NCBI GenBank assembly: GCA_001898855.1
Contig: MKVN01000030.1
Location: forward strand, 1 to 64,000
Direction of reading: 5' to 3'
Length of the DNA: 64,000 nucleotides
Source of the DNA: Micrococcales bacterium 73-13
Lineage (GTDB): Bacteria > Actinomycetota > Actinomycetes > Actinomycetales > Microbacteriaceae
Below are positions 12,775 to 14,825 of the stretch, in pieces; positions within the stretch are counted from its first letter, which is position 1; each line of letters opens with the position of its first letter. The notes under the pieces were generated by a model. It was given only the letters and a program-made list of their open reading frames with translations. It made no database searches and was not told the DNA's origin. A program made the translations under genes and the position numbers.

Positions 12775-14076
12775 GTGCTCCGGGACGTCCTGGCCATCGC
12801 GATCGGCCGGCTCACGCGGCGGGCGCTGCTGCTCGTGCGCCCGGGCGGCGGCACCGCGATCCCGGGCCGGGTCGTCGAGCGGCTGTCGCCCGACCTGCTC
12901 GTCCGGATCCTGCGGCAGCCCCGGCTGGTCGTCGTGACCGGCTCGAACGGCAAGGGCACCACGACGAAGATGCTCGCCGCGATCCTGCGCGCCCACGGCG
13001 TCGACCTGTGGACGAACCGGATGGCCGGGAACATCACCCGCGGCCTGCTCAGCGAGCTGATCACCGTCGTCGACGCGCGCGGGCGCTTCCCGCACGAGCT
13101 CGCCGTGCTCGAGGTCGACGAGGCCTATTCGGCGGTGCTGCTCGAGCGGACCGGCGTGGACACCACCGTGCTGCTCAACGTCATGCTCGACCAGCTGCAC
13201 CGCTGGGGCTCGCCGGACCGCGCCGCGGAGTACCTGGCGCGCACGGCGCGGGCGACCGGCGGCGCGCTGGTGCTGAACCGCGACGACGGGCACCTGCGGG
13301 CGATCGGCACCGACCCGGCCGGCGGCCTGCGCGCCGAGGTGCGCTGGTTCGGGCTCGCCCCCGCCCTGCTCGCGGCGCTGCCGCACGGCAACGGATCGGC
13401 GCCGTACTTCGGCCCGGATCACGGCGGCCCGGCGGTCGGCGCGAGCACGACCGAGGTGCTCGCCGTCGACGGCCGCAGCGCCGTGCTCGGGCTCAGCGGC
13501 GACGGCGAGCTCGAGGTCGGCCTGCCCTCCCCGGGGGTCCATCTCGCGGCCGACTCCGCGGCGGCGGTCGAGGCGGCGCGGGCGGTGCTCCGCGAGCGGT
13601 TCGACCCGGAGGTCGCCGATGCCGCGCTCACCGCGGAGACCTCGATGTTCGCCCGCGGCGAGGTCGCGGAGATCCGCGGCGTGCCGACCCGGCTGCTGCT
13701 GATGAAGAGCCCGCCGACCGCGCAGGCGAACCTCGACGTGCTGCCCGGTTCGCCGGAGCAGCTCATGGTCATCGCGGGGAAGGACCTGCCCGACCCCTCG
13801 CTGCTGTGGCCGGTGGACTGGAGCGCCGTGGACCGGGTCCGGGTCGTGACCGGCCAGCAGGCCCAGGAGATGGCGCTGCGCCTGGTCTACTCGGGCATCC
13901 GGGTCGACGAGGTGATCGAGGACGTCGGCCGGGCGGCCGAGCGGTTCACCGCGCTCCCGCCGCCGACGGACGGGCTGCGGACCGTGGTGTTCACCGCCGA
14001 GGGCATGCGGACCTTCCGCCGGCTGCTCGGCCTGCACGGCGCGTCCACGAAGGCGGCTCCGGAGGACGCCGCATGA
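12775..14076 (+). CDS. murT: MurT-like Mur ligase without zinc ribbon
   Basis: ATP-dependent Mur ligase family. In typical bacteria MurT binds GatD and activates the alpha-carboxyl of D-Glu in lipid II for amidation. The P-loop TGSNGKGTTTK (about 54-64) and the central ligase domain are intact, and a DPSLLWPVDW segment (about 341-350) matches the C-terminal DUF1727 region that contacts GatD. Unlike canonical MurT it has no Cys4 zinc ribbon: all 433 residues contain no cysteine. The GTG start lies 7 bases after the sigA stop, and the gene overlaps gatD by four bases (ATGA). The changed pair may have another acceptor than ammonia; see findings. Confidence 0.88.
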   Translation: MLRDVLAIAIGRLTRRALLLVRPGGGTAIPGRVVERLSPDLLVRILRQPRLVVVTGSNGKGTTTKMLAAILRAHGVDLWTNRMAGNITRGLLSELITVVDARGRFPHELAVLEVDEAYSAVLLERTGVDTTVLLNVMLDQLHRWGSPDRAAEYLARTARATGGALVLNRDDGHLRAIGTDPAGGLRAEVRWFGLAPALLAALPHGNGSAPYFGPDHGGPAVGASTTEVLAVDGRSAVLGLSGDGELEVGLPSPGVHLAADSAAAVEAARAVLRERFDPEVADAALTAETSMFARGEVAEIRGVPTRLLLMKSPPTAQANLDVLPGSPEQLMVIAGKDLPDPSLLWPVDWSAVDRVRVVTGQQAQEMALRLVYSGIRVDEVIEDVGRAAERFTALPPPTDGLRTVVFTAEGMRTFRRLLGLHGASTKAAPEDAA

Positions 14077-14825
14077 CCCCGCGCATCCTCCAGGTCTTCC
14101 CGACGCACTTCGATCAGAACGGCGACAGCGGGAACGTCCTCGCGCTGCGGCGCCGGCTCGAGTGGGCGGGGCACGCGGCGGCGGTCGTCGAGGTCGCGCC
14201 CGGCGAGCCGTGGCCGGCCGATCCGCCGGACTTCGTGCACCTCGGCGGCGGCTCGGTCGCCGCGCAGCTCGACGCGCTGCCCGCGCTGCGCGCCGAGGGG
14301 GAGCGGCTCCGCGACTGGGTCGCGGCAGGGGTCCGGGTGATCGCGGTCGGCGGCGGCTACCAGCTCCTCGCCCGAACGATCCGCTTCCCGGGGTCGAGCG
14401 GGCCCGTCGAGGGACTCGGGCTGCTGCCCGGCCGCAGCGTCGCGAACCCGGCGGCCGGCCCGCTGCCGGCCCCGGACCTCGTCAGCGGGCCCCTGCTGCT
14501 CGAGACCGCGGCGCACGGCGAGGTGCAGGGCTTCGTGAACCTCCGGCAGCGGTTCCTGCCCGACGAGGGCGCGCCGCCGCTCGGCCGGGTCGACGTCGGC
14601 CCCTGGCCGGATGCGGCGGAGGAGGGCTCGGCCGTCGGCGCGGTGCTCGGCAGCCATGCGCACGGTCCGCTCCTGCCGCGGAACCCGCGGCTCGCCGACG
14701 CGATCATCCGCGGCCGTCTGGCCGAGCTCGGCCTCGACTACGAGACCGGCGAGCCGCACGCGCTGGCCGACGCGCACGCGGCCGCGGCGCGCGCCGCGTT
14801 CGCCGAGCGCGCCCGCGCGCGCTGA
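14073..14825 (+). CDS. gatD: GatD-like amidotransferase subunit lacking the nucleophile Cys
   Basis: 250 residues of the class I glutaminase (GATase_3) fold, partner of MurT. The nucleophile turn reads AVGGGYQLL with Gly93 (codon 14349-14351) where GatD has Cys (AxCGGYQ). The protein contains no cysteine at all, so glutamine hydrolysis by the usual thioester route is not possible. The histidine motif HGPLLPRNP (H197) and the RILQVFPTHFDQNGDSGNV N-terminus remain, so the fold and pairing with MurT look conserved. The FENHxGRT segment of active GatD is replaced by GFVNLRQRF. Either a structural, non-hydrolytic partner or a changed enzyme; the reading frame is intact, so it is not a pseudogene. 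Confidence 0.85.
   Translation: MTPRILQVFPTHFDQNGDSGNVLALRRRLEWAGHAAAVVEVAPGEPWPADPPDFVHLGGGSVAAQLDALPALRAEGERLRDWVAAGVRVIAVGGGYQLLARTIRFPGSSGPVEGLGLLPGRSVANPAAGPLPAPDLVSGPLLLETAAHGEVQGFVNLRQRFLPDEGAPPLGRVDVGPWPDAAEEGSAVGAVLGSHAHGPLLPRNPRLADAIIRGRLAELGLDYETGEPHALADAHAAAARAAFAERARAR

Follow-up and report, generated by a model that had tools for sequence, protein, structure and literature searches.

The 64,000-nucleotide stretch of Micrococcales bacterium 73-13 analysed here (hereafter the window) carries, directly behind the principal sigma factor gene sigA, a MurT-like Mur ligase gene and a gatD-like partner gene whose GatD product has lost the glutaminase nucleophile. On balance we favor, with confidence somewhat above even, a reading of the sequences in which this Cys-less pair joins a bridge amino acid to the D-Glu α-carboxyl of the peptidoglycan stem peptide. 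The chances seem to us evenly poised for a broader proposal, that the interval between sigA and parE is the seat of the group B cross-bridge ligase, filled in three ways, and that amidotransferases have at least twice become amino-acid ligases with a dead glutaminase subunit. The three fillers would be a Cys-less MurT/GatD born within the actinobacteria, a second MurT/GatD that lost its Cys independently and was acquired in situ, and a CofE-like ligase. Group B walls are cross-linked from the D-Glu α-carboxyl, and the Microbacteriaceae are known for this wall type. We know of no enzyme that attaches the group B bridge, nor did the literature searched yield one; searches of the open-licence literature also found no prior report that places MurT/GatD in the Microbacteriaceae or links it to a group B wall, and none that describes a CofE-like ligase of the wall. 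The sigA–parE locus of the Cys-less pairs and its alternation with a CofE-like ligase are new.

The losses, the conservation and selection, the two origins, the locus and its alternation described below are read directly from sequence. The MurT-like gene occupies positions 12775..14076 of the plus strand (GTG start, 433 amino acids) and the GatD-like gene positions 14073..14825 of the same strand (ATG start, 250 amino acids), the two frames overlapping through ATGA in an operon arrangement. Translation and alignment bore out what the first-pass annotation had reported of them: glycine stands at GatD residue 93 (AVGGGYQLL; codon 14349..14351, plus strand), where GatD enzymes have the nucleophile cysteine, neither protein contains any cysteine, and both frames are open and overlapping. 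The catalytic histidine of the glutaminase is retained in GatD (HAHGPLL). In MurT, the P-loop GSNGKGTT (12943..12966, plus strand) provides Lys61, equivalent to pneumococcal Lys59, and the equivalents of Lys59, Asn85, Glu110, Asp112, Glu113 and Arg304, which serve ATP, Mg and the acceptor, are all present, as is the Asp equivalent to S. aureus D349 of the shared triad. Pfam recognizes the pair through Mur_ligase_M (29.6 bits, cut-off 24) and GATase_3 (43.8 bits, cut-off 27), with MurT_C at 19.6 bits, under its cut-off of 25; scores against the NCBIfam lipid II isoglutaminyl synthase equivalogs lie far below the thresholds (66.6 versus 800 and 46.6 versus 400 bits). AlphaFold models of MurT and GatD reach predicted local distance difference test (pLDDT) values of 87.8 and 93.2, and their best Protein Data Bank (PDB) matches in Foldseek are S. 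aureus MurT and S. aureus GatD (6gs2_A), respectively, the MurT fold matching 6gs2/9sq9. The mechanical list of open reading frames (ORFs) starts gatD at 13008 (13008-14825, plus strand, 605 amino acids) owing to the high G+C content; gatD really begins with the ATG at 14073. A second MurT was searched for in the window's own genome (97.96% complete) and none was found; a hidden canonical MurT/GatD elsewhere in that genome, which the first-pass annotation had named as a refuting finding, did not come to light.

The loss of the nucleophile is widespread in the family. From 150 Microbacteriaceae genomes we extracted 106 pairs, to which 77 pairs from other Actinomycetota were added (183 in total). 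The nucleophile Cys is missing in 90 of the 106 Microbacteriaceae pairs versus 2 of the 77 others, replaced by Gly, Ala, Ser, Asn, Thr or His; in the actinobacterial alignment suggested by the first-pass annotation, Cys loss thus follows the family, and so this check, too, left the annotation's reading unrefuted. It is ancient and conserved. MurT is absent from 27 of the 150 Microbacteriaceae genomes, and given this number a group B wall does not require the pair everywhere. Four genomes (G049, G059, G112 and G149) have a Cys-less pair at sigA together with a Cys-containing pair elsewhere.

Phylogenetic analysis resolves the Cys-less pairs into two groups. Those lacking the zinc ribbon of MurT, the window's pair among them, form one clade on the MurT tree (79 rows, support 100), confined to the Microbacteriaceae, and those bearing the ribbon, termed type 4, form a separate clade. 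Cys loss needs two changes on both trees, and a single origin of all Cys-less pairs is rejected (approximately unbiased (AU) test, p=0.00099 for the one-clade constraint). Type-4 pairs, recognized by the GatD motif FT[HG]NA.E and the MurT motif RDS..RNA, were found in Microbacteriaceae, Coriobacteriales and many Clostridia, and all 80 named type-4 loci are without the Cys, type-4 GatD also being without the His. They resemble the window's clade in the missing nucleophile, the retained MurT active site and, within the Microbacteriaceae, the sigA–parE locus, but differ in their separate origin, in keeping the zinc ribbon and in having lost the GatD His and MurT Asp349. A large Cys-less MurT/GatD subfamily in metagenome-assembled genomes of Clostridia and Coriobacteriales (L263, L265-L320) has no glutaminase triad left. 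Erysipelothrix and Eubacterium limosum represent group B lineages independent of the Microbacteriaceae; a type-4 match labelled Erysipelotrichaceae led to an order of small genomes (0.9-2.1 Mb) among which no Erysipelothrix could be recognized.

We mapped conserved residues onto S. aureus and S. pneumoniae MurT in 248 MurTs, namely 170 from pairs in three classes and 78 of type 4. The P-loop Lys is invariant in all 248; together with the acceptor-carboxylate Asn, the Glu/Asp/Glu Mg ligands and hinge Arg304, it is invariant in 79/79 MurTs of the window's clade and 78/78 of type 4. The interface with GatD is a different matter. Arg135 of pneumococcal MurT reportedly shuts the gate on the GatD side (PMC6085368). 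This gate Arg is found in 91/91 MurTs with a Cys-containing partner versus 0/79 in the window's clade, the window itself having Leu139 at that position (13189..13191, plus strand). The D349 column holds Asp in the window's MurT, as it does throughout the clade (79/79). In type-4 MurT, the Gln next but one to the gate Arg has become Ser (78/78) and the triad Asp349 has become Asn (74/78). The ratio of nonsynonymous to synonymous substitution (dN/dS) across 12 close pairs is 0.05-0.38 for MurT and 0.08-0.59 for GatD, synonymous sites being saturated in a thirteenth, and both genes are therefore under purifying selection. Residue mapping and substitution rates support a conserved and selected Cys-less lineage with an intact Mur-ligase active site and an altered interface gate. 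A sequencing error or pseudogene is rejected by the open frames, the 79 clade members and the purifying selection.

The first-pass annotation had paired the missing nucleophile with the missing zinc ribbon as joint signs of a redirected enzyme. The ribbon is indeed absent from the window's MurT, but its absence has no link to Cys loss: any CxxC is also lacking in 33 of 75 Cys-containing outgroup pairs and 13 of 16 Cys-containing Microbacteriaceae pairs, and on a reduced tree the ribbon was lost in one change, earlier than the Cys. The Cys tetrad has been described as occurring in ‘some Actinobacteria’ only (PMC6085368). Ribbon loss as part of a functional change is rejected on these grounds; judged from the alignments, the missing ribbon is real but uninformative for the function of the pair. 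The annotation's proposal of a redirected ligase is partly supported without this argument, by the conserved Cys-less lineage, the intact active site, the gate change and the distribution over family and locus.

Within the Microbacteriaceae, 74/76 Cys-less ribbonless and 7/8 Cys-less ribbon-bearing pairs (81/84) adjoin sigA, mostly with parE on the opposite side. None of the 16 Cys-containing pairs of the family lies at this locus, and in genomes with a Cys-containing pair as the sole pair, sigA directly meets parE in 13/14. The same place is taken in 21/23 named type-4 actinobacterial loci, so the first clade has been displaced in situ by the second. In the window, 7 bases separate the stop codon of sigA (11181..12767, plus strand; 528 amino acids, 84-96% identical to sigA ORFs at other loci) from the murT start, and a parE/gyrB-like topoisomerase subunit gene follows downstream (16886..18967, plus strand). 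A pair whose nucleophile position is occupied by Ser (L120) is kept between sigA and parE in a genome of 0.93 Mb (927,303 bases) taken as Tropheryma whipplei Twist; retention in so small a genome suggests that its function is important. In a single genus, two genomes (L399, L401) that encode neither MurT nor a CofE-like protein have an amino-acid-type ABC transporter in the sigA–parE interval.

Genomes without MurT reveal what else can occupy the locus. A CofE-like protein (PF01996, about 233 amino acids) is encoded in 21 of the 27 MurT-less Microbacteriaceae genomes, and in 19 of these 21 its gene is co-oriented with sigA and starts 11-80 bases after it; of the remaining two, one lies 1.4 kb behind sigA, from which a gene for diaminobutyrate aminotransferase separates it, and the position of the other is hidden by a contig break. 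No CofE-like gene of that strength is found in the 123 MurT-bearing genomes (Fisher p=1.3e-20, kinship ignored); three weaker homologues exist, one of them in genus g49. The exchange cuts across genera, six of which (g7, g9, g53, g54, g70 and g77) contain both MurT-bearing and CofE-like species, and among 297 genomes sampled across the class, strong matches are confined to the Microbacteriaceae. The subfamily scores 34.9 bits against the F420 CofE equivalog, versus a threshold of 180.65. The known members of the CofE family, CofE included, couple a carboxyl to an amino acid rather than to ammonia. Since a relative of such a ligase alternates with the pair, the function swapped at the locus is, by analogy, probably amino-acid ligation.

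The CofE-like gene is accompanied by an ATP-grasp gene in 19/21 genomes, with an alanine-racemase-like gene also nearby, and an EctB-type diaminobutyrate aminotransferase is encoded at two of the loci, the one tested scoring 601.8 bits (equivalog cut-off 552.2). The diaminobutyrate aminotransferase and racemase-like genes sit with the CofE-like gene in these relatives, not beside the Cys-less pair. Compact islands of CofE-like, ATP-grasp, alanine-racemase-like and EctB-type genes were seen at L383, L384, L386, L387, L389, L392, L393, L394, L397, L400 and L402, all MurT-less. From their gene content, the sigA–parE islands of MurT-less Microbacteriaceae apparently serve the supply and ligation of bridge amino acids.

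Two carriers of the Cys-less pair can be matched to described walls. One genome of 1,430,433 bp is taken as Rhodoluna lacicola MWH-Ta8, a species with a B2β wall and D-Ala-D-Dab (Dab, diaminobutyric acid) in partial hydrolysates (PMC4156110); its GatD is shortened. Genome editing has been described for this species (PMC11577799). The other, of 3,063,596 bp, is taken as Clavibacter nebraskensis NCPPB 2581, whose genome has that reported size (PMC4059874), and the Clavibacter wall is of type B2γ, a D-DAB bridge running from D-Glu to the D-Ala of another stem (PMC5882085, PMC9603630). The family-wide distribution of Cys-less pairs fits the group B wall. As the bridge uses the D-Glu α-carboxyl, amidation of that carboxyl would block it.

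We envision the pair as an ATP-dependent carboxylate-amine ligase descended from the lipid II amidotransferase. MurT would phosphorylate a stem-peptide carboxyl, most likely the α-carboxyl of D-Glu2 as in its relatives, and GatD would make no ammonia, its part being that of a scaffold which MurT cannot do without and which seals the active site. The attack would come from the amine of a free amino acid destined for the group B interpeptide bridge, either glycine or a D-diamino acid, entering via the interface whose ammonia gate is altered. We infer the substrate carboxyl, the identity of the amine and the direction of the reaction. A laboratory precedent exists for the dead subunit: S. aureus MurT with GatD_C94G does not use glutamine, its use of NH3 at pH 8.5 is unaffected, and MurT alone is inactive (PMC3266927). 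A dead GatD can therefore partner a MurT supplied with its amine from solution. Relatives would have this step performed by the other MurT/GatD clade, which lost its Cys independently, or by the CofE-like ligase at the same spot, and the most economical interpretation of the locus would have all three fillers couple the bridge amino acid with the D-Glu α-carboxyl. The sigA–parE context with its CofE-like replacement favors amino-acid ligation over amidation. This genomic evidence, which the first-pass annotation could not draw on, lends strong support to the hypothesis of a redirected peptidoglycan ligase.

Several alternatives were weighed. The pair could be a ligase for another carboxyl of the precursor, or could perform a second bridge step, for example adding the second residue or capping a diamino acid. 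The locus is shared with ATP-grasp and racemase genes, so more than one ligation may occur there, and in genus g49 a Cys-less pair stands next to a CofE-like gene; however, the MurT relatives act on the D-Glu α-carboxyl, the acceptor Asn and Mg ligands are unchanged, and most carriers are without another ligase gene at the locus, leaving this alternative unlikely. We give still less weight to an ammonia-dependent amidotransferase, in which the pair would go on making D-iso-glutamine from free NH3 with GatD as a mere scaffold. This is exactly what the S. aureus C94G complex does at pH 8.5 (PMC3266927), and the window's clade retains Asp349 and often the GatD His, yet the same complex used no NH3 at pH 7.5 (PMC3266927). 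None of the 79 clade members has kept the gate Arg, the alternating gene belongs to a family of amino-acid ligases, and the four genomes that keep a separate Cys-containing pair suggest a division of labor. Amidation would, moreover, block the very group needed for the group B bridge, as is generally understood and as described for Clavibacter (PMC9603630). That the pair is a regulatory pseudoenzyme, or a relic decaying once the group B wall had made amidation useless, could draw on the long branch and changed positions of the window pair and on the shortened Rhodoluna GatD, but is very improbable, given the catalytic residues of MurT, unchanged in 79/79, the purifying selection acting on murT and gatD alike, retention in the 0.93 Mb genome taken as T. 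whipplei Twist and the 1.43 Mb R. lacicola genome, and replacement in situ by an independently Cys-less homologue.

Some observations weigh against bridge ligation by the pair as the general rule, or against its application to the window. About 20 of the 150 Microbacteriaceae genomes have none of the three locus fillers. In genus g49, a Cys-less pair shares its locus with a divergent CofE-like gene; exclusion therefore has exceptions, and there the pair and the ligase might work one after the other. The window pair is itself divergent, with a tip branch of 0.81 versus a median of 0.28, several conserved positions changed and a degenerate GFENH motif. An ATP-grasp ligase-like gene (ATPgrasp_ST; 14834..15835, minus strand) adjoins it, convergent to gatD and homologous to those at CofE-like and type-4 loci, and among the 150 genomes the window's is the only ribbonless Cys-less one with an ATP-grasp homologue at that strength. 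This ligase might add a second bridge residue or replace the pair, which could be yielding its role in its own species. The role of the pair in the window's species is less sure than its role in the clade.

With the MurT/GatD lipid II isoglutaminyl synthase of S. aureus and S. pneumoniae the window's pair shares the operon, both folds, the MurT active-site residues, the His and Asp349, but it is without the nucleophile Cys, the zinc ribbon and the gate Arg, lies at sigA–parE and scores far under the NCBIfam cut-offs. The S. aureus GatD C94G laboratory mutant has the identical Cys-to-Gly change and a MurT that still uses a free amine, whereas the change in the window is natural, fixed and accompanied by coordinated changes in MurT. 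MurC-F and the archaeal pMur ligases share the Mur-ligase fold and carboxyl-phosphate chemistry, theirs with an amino acid as the attacking amine; unlike them, the window MurT is without the UDP-binding N-terminal domain and has a GatD-type partner. The CofE (F420-0:γ-glutamyl ligase) family, PF01996, has no homology to MurT, and the CofE-like subfamily lies far under the F420 CofE equivalog, but both families form amides from an NTP-activated carboxyl, and it is a CofE-like gene that takes the locus of the pair.

Unrelated ligases alternating at one locus provide a short list of candidate genes for the group B bridge ligase. The Cys-less pairs also show that a glutamine amidotransferase can outlast the loss of its glutaminase, probably by working as a ligase. 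Annotation pipelines may label Cys-less pairs as amidating enzymes or amidotransferases, wrongly if they are ligases. If the rule holds, an empty sigA–parE interval with a Cys-containing MurT/GatD elsewhere should predict amidated D-Glu and no group B bridge. Outside the Microbacteriaceae, CofE-like homologues were also seen within frames of 890-1016 codons in other families (G801:C3:21122-21826, G159:C1:3018921-3019664 and G233:C1:2189195-2189935), possibly as fused proteins.
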